From IMG/VR virus record IMGVR_UViG_3300007538_000160, positions 1 to 25,770 of that record: a stretch of DNA of 25,770 bases; one strand, 5' to 3'. The position numbers and the translations under genes were made by a program. This stretch comes from a virus. The notes under the pieces are model-generated. The model had not been told where the DNA came from. It did no database searches and saw nothing but the letters and a program-made list of their open reading frames with translations. Below are positions 2 to 18,569 of this stretch, piece by piece (the stretch's first letter is position 1; each line of letters opens with the position of its first letter).

Positions 2-2317
2 CTACCTAAATTCAATCATATCCCAAAAATCCGAGGTAACTCCATACACAATACTTTTGGGCCTTCCAAGCCTTCCACCTGCTGAATTTACATGATATTT
101 TGTGTCACCGGGCGCGGAGGGATCAAATGCTTTAAATATTAACTGGTTGTCTGTCATATATTGTATAACTTTCTGAAATCCAGTCATTGATCTGCCTCTA
201 CCACTAGCGGAGTCATTTAGATCATTTAACATCTTGTTATTCTTCAATACACATCTCAACCCAGAGAGCGGGAACAACCCTTTTTCTCTATCTTTTGTTG
301 GAAGTAAGCATTTTTGATCCTTATATTTACCTTTTAAAATTTTAATGATAGCTGGCGCCACAAGGGTAACTGCTATGTCATCTAATATATTCCCAAAATC
401 TCCTCCGCGAAAGAAGCTTTCCACTCCTTCCATCTCATATTCAACTAAACTTTTGCCCCATTGCCATTCTTCCTCACATATTATTGCCTCACTTCTATTG
501 AAAACAGAGCATATACCAGCATATTTTAATGCCTTAACAGCAGCACGTGACCACATTATGCTTTTAATCCCGTCCAAATCTCTATATTTCCTCTCCATAT
601 TAACGCAATGATCCATAAATTCATATATATCATCCTGCAATGAAGCGGACTCTGCTGGCATTAAATGAACTTTCGGATCACTCTCTGCCTGAGTTTGGCT
701 ACATTTGTGAGCCAAATATTTCAATTTATCAGCGCATTCAGTATCTATAAAATAATCAAATGTCCTGCTAATATGAGGCTTGTCTCCAGATATTCTAAAT
801 ATGCTCTGTCTTGCTATATCACCTCTTTCTGCAGCACCACTAGCGCGGAATGTGCTCAATAATGTCTCAGGAGTGGCTTCACTTACAATGCTCAATGATG
901 GCGCTCTCAGAACTGGCACATCATTCTCTGAATCACTAAATCCCTCTGCATTACTATAACCAGTACTAGCACTACATGAATACAGGGACAGCAAGGCGCG
1001 GGTAAAACCGCTTATATCACCACTCTTACTTGCCAGTAATAATCCTGCCTCAGTGAATATACTCACCTTACAGCGGGCTGATTCAAGATCATTTATTACT
1101 GCCTTATAACTTGTATACCTTGATTTGCCTAAAAAGCTACATGATCTATTATCAACATCACTTATTACTGTATAATATACATGCTTAATAAATTCACCTA
1201 TGCTATCTTTACCCATACCTGTTGGCATGATCAATGTTAAATATACATTAAGGCCAAGAGGTTTTGGACAGCTTACATTAAATTTTCTCCCTATTATGCC
1301 AACAACGGCTCCAACAGCGGATACCAGTGCGACTTCTCTATACCTAAACAGGGCCATATCATACGCATTTTGAGTCAATTTACCCAATAATCCAGGCGGC
1401 CATGGTATTACCCTGGAACTTTTGTAATATCCTTCTTCTTCAAGATCAGGCAGATTATCAATATCAATATGAACTTCATTTATCTTTTCATATCCTTGCC
1501 TGACAATCCTATTAATATCATCATATCTTTGGTGCCATCTTGAATCTTTCTCTGCATCAGCGCACGCGGAAAATAGAGTTTGTATGAAAGCGACTGCCAT
1601 TGATTCATCTACGCCATCCTTGGCAAATGCCCAACCCATGCTCAATATGCCAGGGTGGAACATATCTGATTCAATGATCCCTCTCATATGTCCATGCCAA
1701 TCACGGGAAAAGTCAAATATCTTTCCATTCTCACCCGCTACAGACAACTCTTCATGAGCCTCTTTTACTGGAATGCTAACACCTCCAAACCATCCGTAAT
1801 ATTCAAACAACCCATCTTCTGGATCATCTCTGGATGGAATAAACCAAGGCTGGCTCCATCTCCACATTTCATTACATGGATATATCCCTACAGATTTATC
1901 CTTCAATTCTCTTAATATTGATCCAACAGTTGCCCTTAACTGACTCTTTTCAATTGGCACTACTGTCCTGAGCACACAGCGAAACTTATTCTTCTCAGCC
2001 CCCATATGACTATGTGAGGTATAAATGAAATGATTATATCCTAGTTTACGCAATGCATCATGTACCTCTCTAGGACTTGGAGCATTCCCTTTATCAATCC
2101 CCATATCTCCATCAAGAACAATTAGCTCAGATTTAAAGATGTTAGCATCTTTCCTATACATAGGCTCACATGCACCTCTAACAAAATATGCATGGTGCTT
2201 GCTTCCCTTAATAGGCTTTCTGAAATGGGTTGACATCTCCTCAAGTGAGCCATATTTGCATAACTCGCCATTGTCTACATTACGCTGATCACCTGAAAAA
2301 TAAGTTATTGTAAACAA
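2..2317 (-). CDS. Primase-helicase-like replication protein (AEP-like N-terminus + DUF3987-like ATPase)
   Basis: Likely a replicative primase-helicase that primes and unwinds phage DNA. The first ~200 residues resemble archaeo-eukaryotic-type primases: an IVLDGD metal-binding motif, then YTSHSH about 30 residues later (the sxH-type motif), then an FRCVLR strand. From about residue 300 the protein looks like the DUF3987 ATPase family: a PPGLLGKL lead-in, then a Walker A-like PTGMGKDS. The longest frame opens with TTG at 2332, but that codon has no ribosome site. A second TTG at 2317 has GAGAGGA just upstream, so I start there (771 aa). It is the only gene of this arm visible on the minus strand and is transcribed away from the rest of the replication genes. 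The motif reading is direct. The primase-helicase role is family inference. A catalytically altered regulator of replication is possible. Confidence 0.65.
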   Translation of the reverse strand: MFTITYFSGDQRNVDNGELCKYGSLEEMSTHFRKPIKGSKHHAYFVRGACEPMYRKDANIFKSELIVLDGDMGIDKGNAPSPREVHDALRKLGYNHFIYTSHSHMGAEKNKFRCVLRTVVPIEKSQLRATVGSILRELKDKSVGIYPCNEMWRWSQPWFIPSRDDPEDGLFEYYGWFGGVSIPVKEAHEELSVAGENGKIFDFSRDWHGHMRGIIESDMFHPGILSMGWAFAKDGVDESMAVAFIQTLFSACADAEKDSRWHQRYDDINRIVRQGYEKINEVHIDIDNLPDLEEEGYYKSSRVIPWPPGLLGKLTQNAYDMALFRYREVALVSAVGAVVGIIGRKFNVSCPKPLGLNVYLTLIMPTGMGKDSIGEFIKHVYYTVISDVDNRSCSFLGKSRYTSYKAVINDLESARCKVSIFTEAGLLLASKSGDISGFTRALLSLYSCSASTGYSNAEGFSDSENDVPVLRAPSLSIVSEATPETLLSTFRASGAAERGDIARQSIFRISGDKPHISRTFDYFIDTECADKLKYLAHKCSQTQAESDPKVHLMPAESASLQDDIYEFMDHCVNMERKYRDLDGIKSIMWSRAAVKALKYAGICSVFNRSEAIICEEEWQWGKSLVEYEMEGVESFFRGGDFGNILDDIAVTLVAPAIIKILKGKYKDQKCLLPTKDREKGLFPLSGLRCVLKNNKMLNDLNDSASGRGRSMTGFQKVIQYMTDNQLIFKAFDPSAPGDTKYHVNSAGGRLGRPKSIVYGVTSDFWDMIEFR

Positions 2318-4843: not shown

Positions 4844-4934
4844 ATTGTTAATAGAATTTGCATTGTCAGCAGCTATGATTATTGTTGCTTTATTGCTGAT
4901 CCGCTGGCTTGAGTCTATATCTTACAGAAAATAA
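4830..4934 (+). CDS. Small single-pass membrane protein (34 aa)
   Basis: A 34-codon frame overlapping the last 14 bases of the deaminase gene. It is almost entirely one hydrophobic helix (ALSAAMIIVALLLI) followed by a basic end (ESISYRK), as expected for a one-pass membrane peptide. Position and overlap fit translation coupled to the deaminase. No strong ribosome site is visible and I recognise no family. Confidence 0.4.
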   Translation: MTFFRLLIEFALSAAMIIVALLLIRWLESISYRK

Positions 4935-4948
4935 TTTAAAAATTTTTC

Positions 4949-4977
4949 TTTACTTCAGTTATCTTTTATAGTATAAT
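4949..4977 (+). promoter_or_regulatory. Sigma70-like promoter (TTTACT-17-TATAAT)
   Basis: TTTACT (4949-4954), a 17-base spacer ending TTTATAG, and a perfect TATAAT (4972-4977). Transcription would start near 4984, exactly where the tRNA-like structure begins, and continue into the recombination genes. Confidence 0.65.
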
Positions 4978-4984
4978 ATATTCC

Positions 4985-5056
4985 AATGGTTGGTTAATGT
5001 AGCTGAGGAGGCTTTTATAAAAGAGTCTCCCAGGGTGCAAATCCTGTACCATTCCA
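4985..5056 (+). ncRNA. tRNA-like structured RNA with encoded CCA
   Basis: 72 bases starting at the expected start point of the promoter at 4949. Stems read by eye: AATGGT (4985-4990) with ACCATT (5048-5053), followed directly by CCA; GGAGGCT (5007-5013) with AGTCTCC (5024-5030), seven pairs including one G-U; CAGG (5031-5034) with CCTG (5043-5046). TAGCTGAGGAGG (5000-5011) fits the A-box consensus of tRNAs and GGTGCAAATCC (5034-5044) fits the B-box with one mismatch. No proper D-stem forms and the middle loop has ten bases, so no anticodon can be assigned. It may be a degenerate tRNA, a tRNA mimic, or the structured leader of the gene at 5077. Confidence 0.35.
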
Positions 5057-5076
5057 AAGTAAAATGGTGAACACAA

Positions 5077-5451
5077 GTGAACGAAAACAAACTGATTGAA
5101 CTAATTGGAAAACAGAAAGAAATGGCCTCAACTTTGAAAAGGCTTAAAGATGAAGAGTCAAAAATCAGAAGAGAGATTTGCGACCATCTTCTTGAAGGGA
5201 AGGCTGCTGGGACTCATAAGTTCAATATTGGTGATTATCAAGTTAAAGCTGTTAAGTCATTTTCATACTCGCTGGACCAGAATCTAGTTCAAGTTATGCT
5301 TGAATCAGGAGATTTTTCAGATGATGAAGTTGATGCTATTAGAACCAAGTATGAGCTTAATTTGACAAATTATAAAAATTTGGAAAACTCTGATGGCTTA
5401 GATGATTGTATAACTGTGAAGGAATCAATGCCGTCTCTTACTGTTGATTAA
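5077..5451 (+). CDS. Recombination-module accessory protein (DUF7173-like)
   Basis: 124 residues. The N-terminal ~45 residues are a charged helix likely to form a coiled coil (KQKEMASTLKRLKDEESKIR). A small core follows (GTHKFNIGDYQVKAVKSFSY), then a C-terminal part ending in VKESMPSLTVD. This layout matches a small phage protein I recall as usual beside Sak4/ERF-type recombinases; its function is unknown. The start is GTG 5077 with a weak ribosome site, just downstream of the tRNA-like structure. The gene directly precedes the RecA-like ATPase, which supports the assignment. Confidence 0.6.
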   Translation: MNENKLIELIGKQKEMASTLKRLKDEESKIRREICDHLLEGKAAGTHKFNIGDYQVKAVKSFSYSLDQNLVQVMLESGDFSDDEVDAIRTKYELNLTNYKNLENSDGLDDCITVKESMPSLTVD

Positions 5452-6582: not shown

Positions 6583-7395
6583 ATGGCTTTATTACCAAAA
6601 AGAAATCTCATTGAAGAGCTGGTTGAAAGGGGAGAAATACCCCAAATCGACAGACCTTATATTGGGTACTCATCATTAGGAGGATCTTGCCAAAGACGCA
6701 TATGGCTTAATTTCAGATGGGCGTATGAGAGAACGATTCCAAAAAGAATTAATAGAATATTTGAGAGAGGATTTTGGGCAGAGGAGCGGATAGTAAAAGA
6801 TTTAAACTCTGCAGGAATGACAGTATCAGGCGAGCAATATGAGCTAGTGGATGAGACTGGACATTTAATGGGCCATACTGATGGCATTGTTACCGGAATT
6901 CCAGGAGATGAGGAGACACCTCATCTTCTTGAAATAAAAACAATGAATGACAAGAGGTTCAAACAATATATTAAAGATGGATTAAAGCTATCAAATCCAC
7001 AATATTGGGTTCAAATACAGTTGTATATGGGGTGTCTCAACATAGACAAATGTTTGTTTATTGTTGAGAACAAAGACAATGAACATAGGGATTATCAAAT
7101 GTATGATTTTGATCCTGAAGTGTATCTAAGATATAAAGATGTTGGATTTCAGATACTAACATCTGAAAATGCACCAAACAAAATTGGCTCCAGTATCTGG
7201 CATGAATGCAAAATGTGTGATGCCTTTAAGTATTGTCACAAAGACCAATACACAGCTGCCAATTGTAGAACATGTTCATTTGCAAATATAGAAATGGAGG
7301 GAAAATGGTCTTGTGATAAGCTCAACAAGATTCTATCTGTTGATGAACAGAGAGTTGGTTGTGATGAATATGAAAAATCAGAGGTCTATAAATAA
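6583..7395 (+). CDS. PD-(D/E)XK nuclease with cysteine cluster (RecB/Cas4-like)
   Basis: A DNA-end-processing nuclease (270 aa). Core motifs: GHTDG (Asp100), LLEIKT (Glu117, Lys119) and QIQLYM (Gln144-Tyr148), the standard active site of RecB-family nucleases. Cys36 near the start plus Cys209, Cys212 and Cys218 near the end match the layout of Cas4/AddB-type iron-sulphur nucleases. A further set, Cys228, Cys231, Cys244 and Cys260, looks like an added zinc ribbon. It overlaps the helicase start by one base, so the pair probably works together on recombination ends. The ATG follows the terminator closely with only AAAGAA as ribosome site. Metal identity is inferred. Confidence 0.8.
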   Translation: MALLPKRNLIEELVERGEIPQIDRPYIGYSSLGGSCQRRIWLNFRWAYERTIPKRINRIFERGFWAEERIVKDLNSAGMTVSGEQYELVDETGHLMGHTDGIVTGIPGDEETPHLLEIKTMNDKRFKQYIKDGLKLSNPQYWVQIQLYMGCLNIDKCLFIVENKDNEHRDYQMYDFDPEVYLRYKDVGFQILTSENAPNKIGSSIWHECKMCDAFKYCHKDQYTAANCRTCSFANIEMEGKWSCDKLNKILSVDEQRVGCDEYEKSEVYK

Positions 7396-8945
7396 TGTTT
7401 GAACTCAGGCCATACCAAACCCCTATTGCTGGAAAAGTTTTTAAGTATATTGAAGACAATCCGGCAAAACATCCGCTTGTGGCATTGCCCACAGGAGCGG
7501 GGAAAACGGTAGCGCTTGCAGAATGTATAAAAGAATATCTGAGGAGAAAACCAAATGGAAATGTCCTTGTTCTTTCACATGTTAAGGAGATACTTCAGCA
7601 GAATGTTGAAGCAATTGAGGATCACCTATTATTCAGTGTTGGTGTTTATTCAGCTGGGCTTGATTCAAAAGAAATTAAACAAGTCACTGTAGCAAGTATT
7701 CAATCTGCTTATAGCAAGCCTGAATTATTCCAAGATTTCAAATTTGTAATTATTGATGAATGTCATCTAATCCCAACAGATGATAACACAATGTACAAAA
7801 GATTCTTTGCAGGGCTTAATAGTCCAAATTATTTTGGCTTAACTGCAACTCCATTCAGGCTTGGCTCTGGATATATTTATGGTGAAGATGATTCTATATT
7901 TGATGATGTGGTATACGACCTTACATCAATGGAGAACTTTAACAAACTAGTTGAAGATGGATACCTTTGTAAATTGATGACAAAGGCAACTTCAAATGAA
8001 TATGATTTAGATGACATCAAAACTGTAGCGGGTGATTTTGATTTAAAAGGGATGTCTCGTGCTTTTGATAGAGACAACATAACAAACAAGTGTATAAAGG
8101 AGATAATTAAAGCTGGCGCCAACTACAAAAAGTGGCTTGTATTTGCAATTGATATTGATCATGCAGAACACATAGCGGAGGCATTGATCCGCTCTGGTGT
8201 GCCAACTTGTGTCATCCATTCTAAAATGGATTTTGATCGAGACAAAGTAATTCAAGATTTTAAGAATGGAGTTTACAAGGCTGCTGTAAATGTTAATGTA
8301 TTGACTACAGGGTTTAATGATCCTGAGATTGACTTAATAGCTATGCTTAGGCCAACAAAGTCACCTATCATTCATGTACAGACTATTGGCAGAGGGCTAA
8401 GAACAGCAGATGGAAAAGATCACTGTCTTATTCTTGATTTCTCAGGTAATACTGAAAGGCTTGGCCCAATCAATGATGTCCATGTATACAGAAAGAGAAA
8501 ATCAACTGGTGATGGTGAGCCAATAACAAAAAGATGCCCTTCTTGTGACTACATCCACCATCCAACTGTTAAGATTTGTGACAATTGTGGTCATGTATTT
8601 AAGTTCAAAACAAATCTAAATATATCATCAACATCCGCTGATGTAGTAGCAACAACTAAGGTTAACTGGTTTGATGTTAGTAATATCAAATACTATATCC
8701 ACACTAAGCGGAATTCCCCAGATTCTGTGAGGGTACAGTATTCTTGTGGTATGAGATACTTTAATGAATTTGTTTGCATAGAACATCCTGGGTATGCCGG
8801 CTATAGAGCCAAGCATTGGGCGCGATTTCGGGGAACAGAAGCGGATACCGCCAAGGAACTCATTGAAGCGGAGAAAAAGGAACCTAAGAAAATTAAGGTT
8901 GATACTAGGGGAAAGTATCCGGTTATTGTCGATTTCGAGTTTTAA
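7395..8945 (+). CDS. SF2 DNA helicase (RadD/DEAD-like) with zinc finger
   Basis: A 516-aa superfamily 2 helicase acting on recombination or replication intermediates. Motif I is LPTGAGKT (31-38), motif II DECH (121-124), motif III TAT (150-152), and motif VI TIGRGLR (about 330). A four-cysteine zinc finger follows at about 384-398 (CPSC...CDNC). A C-terminal domain ends in VRVQYSCGMRYFNEFVC and HPGYAGYRAKHWARFRG, a tail I recall from phage RadD-like helicases. It is translationally coupled to the nuclease (TAATG overlap). The last ~150 bases are richer in CpG than the rest of the gene. Confidence 0.85.
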   Translation: MFELRPYQTPIAGKVFKYIEDNPAKHPLVALPTGAGKTVALAECIKEYLRRKPNGNVLVLSHVKEILQQNVEAIEDHLLFSVGVYSAGLDSKEIKQVTVASIQSAYSKPELFQDFKFVIIDECHLIPTDDNTMYKRFFAGLNSPNYFGLTATPFRLGSGYIYGEDDSIFDDVVYDLTSMENFNKLVEDGYLCKLMTKATSNEYDLDDIKTVAGDFDLKGMSRAFDRDNITNKCIKEIIKAGANYKKWLVFAIDIDHAEHIAEALIRSGVPTCVIHSKMDFDRDKVIQDFKNGVYKAAVNVNVLTTGFNDPEIDLIAMLRPTKSPIIHVQTIGRGLRTADGKDHCLILDFSGNTERLGPINDVHVYRKRKSTGDGEPITKRCPSCDYIHHPTVKICDNCGHVFKFKTNLNISSTSADVVATTKVNWFDVSNIKYYIHTKRNSPDSVRVQYSCGMRYFNEFVCIEHPGYAGYRAKHWARFRGTEADTAKELIEAEKKEPKKIKVDTRGKYPVIVDFEF

Positions 8946-11567: not shown

Positions 11568-12465
11568 TTTTAATGATAGGCCTGAGCAAATAGGAGGTGC
11601 TCAGATTCCTGCTTACGCTTTTAAAGCGTGGATGGATATATTTGGCATAGAAAGCGAAATTGTGACTACGCCTGATGAAGCTGTAGGTGCTGATTGGTAC
11701 TTCCTTGCTACACCTGGCCCATTTAACGGGGGTGCTTGGGAGTTAGATGCGCCATTTGCCTTAATGGCTCATGCTGAATTTGATAGCCAGCTATACAAAG
11801 ACTTTGGTTGGTATTTAGGACACCCTAATTGCAAGTTGTTTGTGACTATCACTGATTTTTGGGGTTGGATAAATAAACCAAAGTTACATTGGCATCCTTG
11901 CACACATCCTGATTATCTCTTAACTGAAGGAACAATCTTTAACAAAGACTTTAAAGAAGGGATAATATATGCGGCAAGAATATCTAGGTGGAAAAGTCCA
12001 AATCTGCTGGCAGCACTAACTAAATATGGGCCGTTCATGGAAGCAGTGGATAACCAAGTCCATATAATTGGAAAGCCGTCATCGGATTTTGAGATCGATG
12101 AAGGTAACTATATTAGGATAGATACCAGATATGATTCACGCAAAGTATCAGATACCAAGAAAATGTTCTCTGTGTATAAATACTTTTGGGACTATGCCTC
12201 CCATCCAGAGATTAGTAACAGGTACAAGCGGTTGAACTTAGCAGCATATGAGGCTATAAGTGAAGGTTGCATACCTGTAGTAAATCCTAAATATACAGAT
12301 CCATCCGCTATTAAATTTGGCATAGATTTAACAAAGGGGTTTCCCAATACTAGAAGGGAGTATATACTAAGACAAGATTATATGAAAGAAGTCATGATAA
12401 ACAAAGGATTGTCCTATAATGGTGTTAAAGACCAAGTAGTTAAAATTGTGGAGTTTATGTCGTGA
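11551..12465 (+). CDS. GT-B glycosyltransferase-like protein
   Basis: 304 residues. A C-terminal donor-binding-type motif, NLAAYEAISEGCIPVVNP, is typical of GT4-like GT-B enzymes (E-x7-E region). An N-terminal half with GGAQIPAYAF and a middle segment GIIYAARISRWKSPNLL (the strand that starts the second Rossmann domain) agree. It overlaps the DUF5664 gene by 17 bases with no ribosome site of its own, so translation is probably coupled. It could glycosylate modified phage DNA, a virion protein or a host glycan; nothing in the sequence decides. The acceptor-binding half is shorter than in many GT4 enzymes. Confidence 0.6.
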   Translation: MIKIISFNDRPEQIGGAQIPAYAFKAWMDIFGIESEIVTTPDEAVGADWYFLATPGPFNGGAWELDAPFALMAHAEFDSQLYKDFGWYLGHPNCKLFVTITDFWGWINKPKLHWHPCTHPDYLLTEGTIFNKDFKEGIIYAARISRWKSPNLLAALTKYGPFMEAVDNQVHIIGKPSSDFEIDEGNYIRIDTRYDSRKVSDTKKMFSVYKYFWDYASHPEISNRYKRLNLAAYEAISEGCIPVVNPKYTDPSAIKFGIDLTKGFPNTRREYILRQDYMKEVMINKGLSYNGVKDQVVKIVEFMS

Positions 12466-13001
12466 AAACTACAATATTGTTTGATACTGAAACTACAGGA
12501 CTGTTAGTGCCTGAAATTAACAGACTTGATGCACAACCTTATATTGTGGAGTTGTACGCTTGTAAGGTTGATGAAGAGTTTAACATGATAGGCGAGTTTT
12601 ACTCAAAATTTAAGCCACCTATCCCAATTCCCGCAGATGTTTCTAAGGTTCATGGCATTACTGATGAGATTGCAGCGAAACAGCCTGTGTTTGGGGATTG
12701 CGTAGATGAGCTTGCCGATCTGTTTCTTGGGGCTGATACGCTGGTTGGTCACAACCTGTCATATGATCGCTCAATGCTTGCTAATGAACTACTCCGCTGT
12801 GATCGATTGCTAAGATTCCCGTGGCCTCCTGAGCATATCTGTACAATAGAGATGTCTATGGGCCTAGAACAGCGGAGGCTAAATCTAGGAGCATTGCATG
12901 CTTATGCCACTGGCAAGCCTCATGAGAATGCGCATACCGCCAAACATGATGTATTTGCTCTTGTTCGTTGTTACCATTGGCTATTGGAGCAAAAGAAATG
13001 A
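12462..13001 (+). CDS. DnaQ-type 3'-5' exonuclease
   Basis: 179 residues of the DEDDh exonuclease family, giving proofreading or DNA-trimming activity. Exo I is FDTETTG (Asp8, Glu10), Exo II GHNLSYDRS (Asp102), and Exo III HTAKHD (His158, Asp163), with all four acidic residues and the His present. The DnaE-type polymerase at 13872 has no exonuclease domain, so this protein is the natural proofreading subunit. The GTG start overlaps the previous stop and GGAG lies upstream. Family and catalytic residues are clear; pairing with the polymerase is inferred. Confidence 0.88.
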   Translation: MKTTILFDTETTGLLVPEINRLDAQPYIVELYACKVDEEFNMIGEFYSKFKPPIPIPADVSKVHGITDEIAAKQPVFGDCVDELADLFLGADTLVGHNLSYDRSMLANELLRCDRLLRFPWPPEHICTIEMSMGLEQRRLNLGALHAYATGKPHENAHTAKHDVFALVRCYHWLLEQKK

Positions 13002-13753
13002 AATTAGTATGGGAAGTAGTGTACCAATATGCTGGAGGCCAGACTAGAACTATACCTGCTGTCGACAACTGTTTCCATGCTGATCCGTTTACACGCAATA
13101 ATGTAATCTTTCTTGAAGAGTATTCATATAAGAAAGAAAAGGGTTACATTGTCGCCTACAAAGTGGATATGAACAATGAGCCTGTTAGGCTAGGTGTCGT
13201 ACTTGAAGAAGAGTTTCACCTTTCATTTCCTTACATGTTTAGTTATGCTGGTGGTATCTGGATGGTTCCAGAGTCACACAAAGCGGGAGAAATAAGGCTA
13301 TACAAATGTGTAAAGTTCCCCCTTGAATGGGAATTTGTTAAGGTTTTAGTACAGCTCCCGGCTGCAGACAGCGTGCTATTTCCTGGCGAATCTAAATGGT
13401 ATATGCTTACAAACCTTGGGGATTTCAATAATGAGCTACATATGTATACTGCTGACAATCCGCTGTCTGATTGGGTTAAATTAAATGGGCCTGTAGTTGT
13501 AGGTAACCATGCTAGAAATGGCGGACTTATCATTAAGGACACAGCTATAACGAGAGTGGCGCAAAACCAAGGCAAGGTATATGGGGAATCCTACAGTCTT
13601 AATAGGATTGATAATATATACCCATATAAAGAAACAAAGATGTCTCACATCTACCCTAAATCTGGATACGATGCTACTCACCATTTGTGTATTCAAGGTG
13701 ATTTAACAGTCTGGGATCAAGCAAAACTTTGCAACCCTTATAAAACCCTATAA
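12998..13753 (+). CDS. GH43-like five-bladed propeller protein (sugar-related)
   Basis: 251 residues. Motifs HLSFPYMFSYAGGIWMVPES, then LYKCVKFPLEW and ADSVLF...WYMLTN, match the GH43-like propeller domain found in glucosamine inositolphosphorylceramide transferase-like proteins and beside bacterial sugar-modifying enzymes. It probably binds or processes a carbohydrate. I start at ATG 12998, which overlaps the exonuclease stop (ATGA) and has GGAG seven bases upstream, rather than an earlier TTG. It sits with a glycosyltransferase two genes upstream. I cannot identify the catalytic residues, so it may be a binding protein. Confidence 0.6.
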   Translation: MKLVWEVVYQYAGGQTRTIPAVDNCFHADPFTRNNVIFLEEYSYKKEKGYIVAYKVDMNNEPVRLGVVLEEEFHLSFPYMFSYAGGIWMVPESHKAGEIRLYKCVKFPLEWEFVKVLVQLPAADSVLFPGESKWYMLTNLGDFNNELHMYTADNPLSDWVKLNGPVVVGNHARNGGLIIKDTAITRVAQNQGKVYGESYSLNRIDNIYPYKETKMSHIYPKSGYDATHHLCIQGDLTVWDQAKLCNPYKTL

Positions 13754-13861
13754 GGGCCGAAAATATCTATCCACTAGGGCGCTAGCGCCTACTAGTACTA
13801 ATTCGCGCTGCAAACCGCGCTAGATAGACTATACCGCGCTTATTCGGCCTATAATTGATTG
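13754..13861 (+). promoter_or_regulatory. Nested GC-rich inverted-repeat region upstream of the polymerase gene
   Basis: About 100 bases with CpG density far above the surroundings. The outer arms GGCCGAA (13755-13761) and TTCGGCC (13843-13849) pair. Inside, TCTAT-CCA-CTAG (13766-13777) pairs with CTAGATAGA (13820-13828) around a three-base bulge. At the core GGCGCTAGCGCC (13778-13789) is a perfect palindrome. CGCGCT occurs three times (13804, 13816, 13835). TATAAT (13850-13855) follows, with TAGACT (13825-13830) a loose -35. It may be an operator, a structured leader or a replication origin. Confidence 0.45.
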
Positions 13862-13871
13862 GAGGGTTACT

Positions 13872-16574
13872 ATGCTATATAACATAGCTTTAAAGACTGA
13901 GTTCTCATTTAAGTCTTGCTATATGTCTATTAAAGATATACATAAATATGCCTTGAATGGAGTTGTAGGTATAGCAGACTTGGACAATACATTCGGACAC
14001 ATCCCGCTTCAGGTTCAAGCTAGGAAGCATGGCTTCAAGCCTATATATGGGGTGAGGATTAGGGTGTCACGACCTGAGAATGCCAAACGTCAAACGGGTA
14101 ATGTATATACCACATTTATTGCTAAGAATGAAGATGGGCTTGTAGCTTTACGAAAGTTGGTTAATAAGGCTTGGGATCAGTTCTACTATTTTCCAAGACT
14201 TTTTGTTGAAGATATTGAAGAACTAAATCCCGGTATTATCAATTTGGGCGAAAATGTTTATGAAAACTTCTACCCAACTATAGATGAAAGGGGTGTATAC
14301 CAAATACTCGCAGGCTCCAGCAAGCGTGGTGATGGGTACATATATAATTTTTCTAATAAAGCTGGGCCTATGCATATCATACCAGGGGAATACCAGCATA
14401 TAGTAGACCAATGCGAAGATATTACAATTCCTAATGCTAGTATGGTCAAATGGGGAAAGCCGTTTGATATTAAGCAGCTATGCATAGACTCGGCAAAACG
14501 GAAAGGTGTCAAACTAAATGGGGAGTATGGCAAAAGACTAGATTATGAGCTTGATCTTATTGTTAAGAAAGATTACCAAGACTATTTTATGATAGTGGCC
14601 GATATGGTAATGGAAGCGAAAAAGAAAATGTTAGTAGGTCCAAGTCGTGGTTCTTCTGCTGGCTCCCTTGTCTGTTACCTGCTAGGTATAACAGAAGTTG
14701 ACCCTATTGCACACAAGCTAATCTTTGAGCGATTTATTGATATTAACCGTTTTGACTTACCTGATATAGATGTAGACTTTCCAGACAAGAAAAGGCAAGA
14801 TGTTTTAAAATATCTAACCGGAAAATACGGTAGGGATAATGTTAGAACTTTGGCTAATATCAATACTTTTATGCCCAAGTCGGCAATAGCGGAAACTGGC
14901 AAGGCTCTTGGCATACCTAAGTACAAAATACAGCCTGTGCAGGATGCTATTATTGAGCGTAGTATGGGGGATGCTAGAGCAGCTATGTGCATTCGTGACA
15001 CCTTTGAGACTACTGAAGCGGGAAAAGAGATTGTAATTGAGTATCCTAATATAGAGCTGTCAGCTTATCTTGAAGGACATGCTGCCAATTCTGGCAAACA
15101 TGCTGCTGGCGTGATTGTATCAACTCTACCTTTATCCACCTATGCCTCTGTTAATTCTCGTGATGATGTAGTCATGATGGATAAAAAGGATGCCGAAGCT
15201 ATAAATCTTTTAAAGATTGATTGTCTGGGCCTAAGAACATTATCAATCATTGAAGATACGGTTAAGCAAATAAAAGGTATGAGACTATCTGATGTATACA
15301 ACTTACCTCTTGACGATAGAAGAGCTTTTGATTTATTCAATAATATGCGGCTTAGTGGCATATTCCAGTTTGAAGGTCTGGCGTTGCAGATCCTTACTAA
15401 GCAAATGGGGGTTAATCATTTTAACGATATTGCAGCTATTACAGCTCTTGCTCGTCCTGGCGCACTTAATAGCGGTGGTGCGACAAGATATGTCAAGTAC
15501 CATACAGGCCAAGAAACACCTAGATACTTCAACAGCATACACAAAGAAATTACTGAAGAAACATATGGAGTAACAGTATACCAAGAGCAAATGATGGAGA
15601 TTGCCAGACGTATCGGCAGGCTATCTTGGGAGGATGTATCAACACTTAGAAAAGCTACGTCCAAGTCTCTTGGTGATGAATTCTTTGGCAAATATAAAAC
15701 ACAGTTTGTCGAAGGTGCTAAGGAATCTGGATTGTCAGATGAAGAGTCAGCGGATATTTGGAATGACATATCACATAGTGGGTCATGGTCGTTTAACAAG
15801 GCGCACGCTGTTAGTTATGGCTTGGTATCATATTGGACTGCATACTTCAAAGCAAATTATCCGCTTGAGTTTGCAGTTGCCTCTCTTAACAATGCTAAGA
15901 ATGCAGAGACAGCAATTAAACTTCTAAGGGATATGGTTGAAAATGAAAATATGGAATATGAGCCTGTCAATCCTCAGAAATCAGGATTAGATTGGTCTGT
16001 AATAGATGGCAAGCTAGTTGGCGGATTAAAAAGTATTGATGGCATAGGCGACATCAAGGCTGGCAAATTCATCAAAATGAGAGAAGGTAAGATAAAGCCA
16101 ACCCCACAGTTTTGGAAGATAATGGAGAATCCAAAAACGCCATTTGATATTATATTCCCTTGTCGACACCATTGGGGTATTTTATATAATGACCCTCAAT
16201 CATATGGATTGCCAAGAAAGCCTGATTTAATAGAGTCTATTGATGGCATAGGAGATTATATAATTGTTGGCTGTCTTGTTGATAGAAACTTGCGTGATTT
16301 AAATGAATATACTTTTCTGAAAGATAGAGGTGGGAAAATTATTGATGAAAATAATCTTTATCTAAATTTCACAGTTGAAGATGATACTGGCACTATTATG
16401 TGTAAGATTGATAGATGGAAATTTGAACAGCTTGGTGGAAGGAAAATTGCAGAGCAAGGCAAAGTTGGGGAAAGTTGGTATCTTATCAAGGGGAAGATTA
16501 AAAATCAATGGCGAAAAGTTGAAGTAGATGCCATATTTAATCTTACTGAAAAATTTGGTAGCCTTGCACTATAG
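13872..16574 (+). CDS. DnaE-type DNA polymerase III alpha-like polymerase
   Basis: A C-family replicative polymerase of 900 aa, shorter than E. coli DnaE (about 1160). The N-terminal PHP-like domain lacks the usual HxHS metal ligands (IALKTEFSF at residues 5-13), so it is probably structural. The palm has GPSRGSSAGS (257-266), PDIDVDF (Asp300, Asp302) and KIDCLGL (Asp450), the three catalytic aspartates, plus GKHAAGVIVS (408-417). A helix-hairpin-helix region (SIDGIGDIKAG) and an OB-fold-like C-terminus follow. There is no exonuclease insert and no visible C-terminal clamp motif. GGAGGG precedes the ATG. Together with the DnaQ-type protein it should synthesise phage DNA. Confidence 0.9.
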   Translation: MLYNIALKTEFSFKSCYMSIKDIHKYALNGVVGIADLDNTFGHIPLQVQARKHGFKPIYGVRIRVSRPENAKRQTGNVYTTFIAKNEDGLVALRKLVNKAWDQFYYFPRLFVEDIEELNPGIINLGENVYENFYPTIDERGVYQILAGSSKRGDGYIYNFSNKAGPMHIIPGEYQHIVDQCEDITIPNASMVKWGKPFDIKQLCIDSAKRKGVKLNGEYGKRLDYELDLIVKKDYQDYFMIVADMVMEAKKKMLVGPSRGSSAGSLVCYLLGITEVDPIAHKLIFERFIDINRFDLPDIDVDFPDKKRQDVLKYLTGKYGRDNVRTLANINTFMPKSAIAETGKALGIPKYKIQPVQDAIIERSMGDARAAMCIRDTFETTEAGKEIVIEYPNIELSAYLEGHAANSGKHAAGVIVSTLPLSTYASVNSRDDVVMMDKKDAEAINLLKIDCLGLRTLSIIEDTVKQIKGMRLSDVYNLPLDDRRAFDLFNNMRLSGIFQFEGLALQILTKQMGVNHFNDIAAITALARPGALNSGGATRYVKYHTGQETPRYFNSIHKEITEETYGVTVYQEQMMEIARRIGRLSWEDVSTLRKATSKSLGDEFFGKYKTQFVEGAKESGLSDEESADIWNDISHSGSWSFNKAHAVSYGLVSYWTAYFKANYPLEFAVASLNNAKNAETAIKLLRDMVENENMEYEPVNPQKSGLDWSVIDGKLVGGLKSIDGIGDIKAGKFIKMREGKIKPTPQFWKIMENPKTPFDIIFPCRHHWGILYNDPQSYGLPRKPDLIESIDGIGDYIIVGCLVDRNLRDLNEYTFLKDRGGKIIDENNLYLNFTVEDDTGTIMCKIDRWKFEQLGGRKIAEQGKVGESWYLIKGKIKNQWRKVEVDAIFNLTEKFGSLAL

Positions 16575-18044: not shown

Positions 18045-18210
18045 TAAGAAAGTTAAGCAATTATCTGCTGCTCTTTTTATGATAGAGAATATTAATACAC
18101 TACTTAATGATCTAGCAGAGGGAATAGATGATGAAGAGTTGAAGAAGTTTTTAGTACATACAACATTGTTGCACATACACCTTGAAAGAAAATTAGAGAG
18201 TGTGAAATGA
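18037..18210 (+). CDS. Small helical hypothetical protein (57 aa)
   Basis: Starts at ATG 18037, with GGAG seven bases upstream, inside the preceding gene's end. It is one or two long amphipathic helices (LSAALFMIENINTLLNDLA, then ELKKFLVHTTLL). I recognise no family. Its stop overlaps the MazG start (ATGA), placing it in the same coupled operon. Confidence 0.45.
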   Translation: MNDKKVKQLSAALFMIENINTLLNDLAEGIDDEELKKFLVHTTLLHIHLERKLESVK

Positions 18211-18569
18211 CTGAAGTAAAATCTGATGTTCCGCTGTATACATTTGATTTGTTCCAAGAGCATGCAATGCGCACTGCTAAGGAAATTGGCGATGTTGAGG
18301 ACATCCTGCATGCCACCCTTGGCATAGGCTCAGAAGCGGGTGAATTGCAATCATCTGTTAAAGGATGGCTTGCTTATGGGAAAGATTTGGATGTTAAAAA
18401 CATCATTGAAGAAATGGGTGATATTTTATGGTATATCGCTCTTATGTGCAAAAGGCTAAACATTCCAATGCAGCATGTGGCAATTGAAAATATAGCAAAG
18501 CTATATGCTAGGTATCCAGAGAAATATACAGATGAAGATGCTATAGCAAGAGCTGATAAGTCAGAATAA
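18207..18569 (+). CDS. MazG-like nucleotide pyrophosphohydrolase
   Basis: Hydrolyses nucleoside triphosphates to monophosphates with magnesium, controlling the nucleotide pool or removing noncanonical dNTPs. The 120-aa all-helical protein carries the metal-binding pair ExxE (Glu43, Glu46 in GSEAGEL) and ExxD (Glu69, Asp72 in EEMGDILWY) at the expected spacing. It is the last gene of the plus-strand arm, right before a bidirectional terminator, and complements DUF5664 at 11283. The exact nucleotide is not evident. Confidence 0.85.
   Translation: MTEVKSDVPLYTFDLFQEHAMRTAKEIGDVEDILHATLGIGSEAGELQSSVKGWLAYGKDLDVKNIIEEMGDILWYIALMCKRLNIPMQHVAIENIAKLYARYPEKYTDEDAIARADKSE

Follow-up and report, generated by a model that had tools for sequence, protein, structure and literature searches.

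Directly upstream of the gene for a PHP-DnaE-type DNA polymerase III alpha (pol), the analysed phage DNA contains a CpG-rich noncoding gap of 118 nt, which may well be a lineage-specific, fast-evolving promoter/operator segment, located at an insertion hot spot and supplying pol with a transcription start of its own. We put this reading forward tentatively, and it draws on a diverged, probably homologous gap in the closest relative found. All coordinates of the gap count from position 1 of the window, by which we mean the whole stretch of 25,770 nt. The features concerned are as follows.

12462–13001, + strand: DnaQ/RNase T-type exonuclease gene (exo; PF00929, 6.8e-17; PHROG 192), bounding the insertion hot spot on the left
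12998–13753, + strand: GINT1_N-like gene (PF24793, 8.9e-32) with a predicted beta-propeller domain
13754–13871, + strand: CpG-rich noncoding gap, 118 nt, with a probable diverged counterpart at L001:2351–2540
13755–13761, + strand: outer inverted-repeat arm GGCCGAA, partner TTCGGCC at 13843–13849 (from sequence and DNA fold)
13766–13771 and 13823–13828: inner arms TCTATC and GATAGA (from sequence)
13774–13777 and 13820–13823: CTAG arms (from sequence)
13778–13789, no strand: palindrome GGCGCTAGCGCC, extended by the flanks ACTAG and CTAGT to an imperfect palindrome of about 24 bp
13804–13840, + strand: three CGCGCT direct repeats, starting at 13804, 13816 and 13835
13825–13855, + strand: candidate sigma70-type promoter TAGACT-19-TATAAT (PSSM score 8.2, p 0.04 against shuffles)
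13861–13865, + strand: Shine-Dalgarno sequence GGAGG of pol (from sequence)
13872–16574, + strand: pol (PF07733, PF17657, PF02811; PHROG 405, 2e-219)

The letters and coordinates given in a first-pass annotation for the arms, the palindrome and the CGCGCT repeats proved correct when checked against the sequence. The CpG excess described there was likewise confirmed, with ten CpG within 13755–13851 (97 bases) against a window mean of 1.6 per 97, and so was the isolated position of the gap, which is the longest within a replication block of tightly packed genes, the neighbouring intervals ranging from −17 to +85 nt. The window as a whole is CpG-poor, containing 428 CpG versus about 1000 expected (0.43 of expectation), and a density of ten CpG per 97 bases is reached at just two other places, both at 25.27–25.53 kb. 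Eight perfect 12-mer palindromes are present in the window, of which GGCGCTAGCGCC is the sole GC-rich one, and the gap contains CTAGGG in a palindrome. Copies of the 13-nt sequence ACTAnnnCGCGCT additionally occur in the gap at a distance of 31 nt.

The GINT1_N-like gene represents cargo between exo and pol, and its ATG overlaps the exo stop codon. A GINT1_N domain gene (PF24793) is found inside a phage replication operon; it has no counterpart in the 13 relative records searched nor in the phage collection, and scanning viral contigs as well as genomes with seeds gave no relative of the protein. Polymerase relatives were collected, together with phage records, and 86 exo-pol junctions were read, including that of the window. 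The two genes abut or lie no more than 30 nt apart in 44 junctions. Because the interval exceeds 30 nt in the other 42, which hold small spacers or varied inserted ORFs, we regard the junction as an insertion hot spot. Among the 86 intervals, only those of the window and of L001 contain a long noncoding stretch whose CpG content stands out from AT-rich surroundings, with 8.2 CpG per 97 bases in the window gap (background 1.6) and 6.6 in the L001 gap (background 1.4), while the other CpG-rich exo-pol spacers belong to CpG-rich contigs.

The phage record L001, whose polymerase is 77% identical to that of the window, is the closest relative found and the only one among the 86 junctions in which a counterpart of the gap was detected. 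Its noncoding, CpG-rich gap (L001:2351–2540) is 190 nt long, with exo on one side and, on the other, an HNH_3 endonuclease gene that overlaps pol; the inserted neighbours differ, with the GINT1_N-like gene beside the window gap and the HNH gene beside that of L001. It contains a 14-nt inverted repeat (TAACCCGCTAGGGT/ACCCTAGCGAGTTA) around two exact copies of the 13-nt repeat TCGCGCTTCTACG, which are 22 nt apart, followed downstream by a promoter-like TTTACT-17-TATAAT, GGAGG and ATG. In both gaps, CTAGGG forms part of inverted repeats, (T)CGCGCT occurs more than once, and a TATAAT stands 5–7 nt ahead of GGAGG, followed by ATG. They share 23 same-strand 6-mers versus 10–15 in simulated sequences (p 0.002–0.05), and the shared 7-mers gave p values of up to 0.09 in second-order simulations. 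Shared words exceeded the simulation in the 3' 50 nt (p 0.0015) as well as in the remainder (p 0.008), and word sharing with the opposite strand showed no excess. When both strands of the whole 51-kb L001 genome were compared, corresponding to about 1,000 independent places, the best 190-nt 6-mer match was the syntenic gap, which also outscored every other record compared. A gapped alignment of the two gaps was weak (p 0.026), and their local similarity by Smith-Waterman did not reach p 0.05. Because identity at four-fold sites of pol has fallen to 42% between the two phages, unconstrained DNA would be nearly unalignable. The two gaps are probably homologous, with some of their words under selection, as moderately but not strongly supported by these sequence comparisons.

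An operator had been among the functions suggested for the gap, and an operator/promoter role gains some support from the diverged L001 counterpart at the same junction and in the same orientation, from the promoter-like site and from the layout of −10 box, Shine-Dalgarno sequence and ATG. The candidate promoter is weakened by its long spacer of 19 nt and by the implied start at about 13861–13863, inside the Shine-Dalgarno sequence of pol, and scanning the gap at 16–18 nt spacing gave no match. This promoter class is plausible because the window phage and L001 each have boxes of the type TTTACT/TAGACT-17..19-TATAAT in further gaps. The proteins scanned yielded no phage DNA-binding regulator. 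We propose that a segment between exo and pol was already present in the common ancestor of the window phage and L001, and that cargo would have entered on different sides of it, with the GINT1_N-like gene lying upstream in the window and, in L001, the HNH endonuclease gene lying downstream. The −10 box and the ribosome site of pol would be provided by the 3' part of the gap, and the upstream CpG-rich part, with its inverted repeat around the CGCGCT copies, may be a DNA site recognised by a regulator of phage or host origin. The presence, position, composition and repeats of the gap, its promoter-like match and its word similarity to the L001 gap beyond simulation are observed; that the two gaps share descent and that the segment acts as a promoter, binds protein and regulates pol is what we infer from these patterns. 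If this applies, the phage would keep its polymerase expressed despite foreign genes inserted upstream, since pol would carry its own promoter segment, and the gap would offer a concrete testable element in an uncultured phage group; as mere debris or an ordinary promoter, it would be of local interest.

It is doubtful that the gap acts instead as a structured RNA in a read-through transcript, setting polymerase translation as a leader, an RNase processing site or an attenuator. The arms of the nested pairing proposed by the first-pass annotation are present in the sequence and are returned by DNA folding of the + strand, but the fold energy does not go beyond composition, whether RNA or DNA is folded and whichever strand is taken. 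As RNA, a 131-nt segment gave z values of −0.63 and −0.45 and the 95-nt core −1.57 and −1.35, and the core as DNA gave −0.58 and −1.25. The outer arms are also paired in the RNA fold, but the inner stems are other than those proposed. An RNA function would agree with the minimum free energy fold, in which ACCCU at the GINT1_N end (13745–13749) pairs with the Shine-Dalgarno region (13863–13867), with a perfect 8-bp hairpin without a T run across the GINT1_N stop codon (CCCTTATA-AAACCC-TATAAGGG, 13735–13756; z −4.3, picked post hoc) and with the folding of the L001 gap (z −2.2). It is at odds with z values of just −0.6 to −1.6 for the gap itself, with the lack of any Rfam match for the gap at gathering or relaxed thresholds, and with arms that are not alignable in any relative. 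A conserved leader RNA, another of the functions suggested initially, is thus not supported, given the absent Rfam match and folding without excess over composition. An intrinsic terminator was dropped as an interpretation because the GC stem has no T run, and the gap is missing a U-tract terminator, unlike other gaps of the window phage. A tRNA was dismissed because ARAGORN found none, as was an integron attC site, no GTTRRRY/RYYYAAC ends being visible by eye. Very unlikely, moreover, is the suggested origin of replication or a replication-associated site. Direct repeats inside inverted repeats and an adjoining polymerase gene would suit such a site, and a CpG-rich island of L001 sits at the skew minimum of that record (45642). 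However, the cumulative GC skew of the window, which here also tracks gene direction, switches at 2495 (minimum) and 18592 (maximum) and not at 13.8 kb, making an origin at the gap unlikely, and the gap is missing in most relatives. The skew minimum at 2495 lies in a divergent region beside the primase gene (2395–2424 and 2333–2885), where promoter-like sites occur; this region is the likelier origin or early control region.

A small MITE-like or palindromic insertion directly after the GINT1_N stop codon would also account for the foreign composition of the gap, and we consider it possible but weaker, and on the whole unlikely. The insertion would end in GGCCGAA...TTCGGCC and be flanked by the direct repeat TATAA (CCTATAA with overlap allowed), and its removal would leave a normal compact junction consisting of the stop codon, 17 nt with GGAGG and ATG. 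The empty site would then read TATAATTGATTGGAGG. Of 5000 shuffled versions of the gap, 8 had terminal inverted repeats of 7 nt with a 5-bp direct repeat at the ends, although this combination was picked post hoc and the whole window contains a second one of the kind. The record L022 has two noncoding islands that are related to each other and inverted (85% identity across 76 nt), in line with mobility, but the L001 counterpart does not have the GGCCGAA/TTCGGCC ends, and searches of viral, genome, phage and plasmid collections gave no copy. The gap is single-copy within the window, and BLAST against phages and plasmids gave nothing significant. Exact seed scans covered viral contigs with GGCGCTAGCGCCTACTA, CCGCGCTTATTCGGCC, GGCCGAAAATATCTAT, GCGCTAGATAGACTAT and CTAGTACTAATTCGCG and genomes with ACCGCGCTTATTCGGCC; the few matches did not extend past the seed and were taken as chance, and those of the CGCGCTTATTCGGCC seed in genes would be explained by its reading YRAYSA as codons. 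In G6, 13 bases match at 46.3 kb inside an apparent gene, which was also taken as chance, and none of the local alignments of the gap to the other L001 islands or to islands of L008, L022 and L042 reached p 0.05. It is rather improbable that the gap is neutral debris, left under no selection where modules were exchanged at a recombination hot spot. This would fit an exo-pol interval that exceeds 30 nt in 42 of the 86 junctions, often with varied ORFs, and a gap fold not beyond composition, but is at odds with the words shared with L001 at saturated divergence.

Apart from the gap, we observed further GC-rich or CpG-rich noncoding stretches in these phages. The L022 islands (record G7, 7393–7738 and 18193–18401) are GC-rich inverted copies of each other, matching at 85% over 76 nt and at 74% over 84 nt, in which AAATCAAYRACTTA words are repeated; one is located between divergent and the other between convergent genes, and they resemble an origin or a mobile element. 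The L001 record contains more CpG/CTAG-rich islands (CCGCTAGGGTT...CTCTAGCGGCTTTCG) at 42076–42223, 42617–42953 and 45495–45713, close to the syntenic counterpart of the window's primase gene, and the cumulative GC skew of that record has its minimum in the last of these. Promoter-like TTTACT/TAGACT-17-TATAAT boxes are present at 4949–5065 of the window and at about 48160–48270 of the L001 genome (L135), in both cases followed by a similar tRNA-looking noncoding stretch, GTTGGT..AATGTAGCTGAGGAGGCTTT..GAGTCTCCCAGGGTRCAAATCCTGTRCCAT; ARAGORN detected no tRNA in the window, and a relaxed Rfam search gave nothing in window 4900–5100. It is conceivable, if improbable, that noncoding cassettes of palindromes and direct repeats, CpG-rich, fast-changing and mobile between gaps, form a family in the AT-rich phages of this DnaE-polymerase group. 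Such cassettes would set transcription or replication of the adjoining genes, with the window gap, three islands of L001 and both inverted L022 copies as examples.

Several known systems resemble the gap in part. PeSLs of T4-type phages are reportedly mobile regulatory cassettes consisting of a promoter and a stem-loop, present in many copies at insertion borders. The gap resembles them in being small and intergenic, in combining a promoter-like site with a stem-loop and in bordering inserted genes, but it has no homology to them, does not contain a T4 early promoter and is mobile only by conjecture; with a single copy in the window and a weak promoter match, it does not qualify as a PeSL. Bacterial palindromic repeats and MITEs of the ERIC, RUP or Correia type are intergenic elements of about 100 bp with inverted ends and a flanking direct repeat. 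The gap is similar in size, inverted ends, overall palindromic build, intergenic location and the direct repeat at its flanks, but differs in that its arms are just 7 bp long and no second copy was found anywhere searched. With ordinary sigma70-type promoter/operator gaps of phages, it has in common the −10/−35-like boxes, the inverted repeats and the position before a replication gene in a packed operon, whereas it is set apart from them by being unusually CpG-rich, fast-changing and confined to one lineage.
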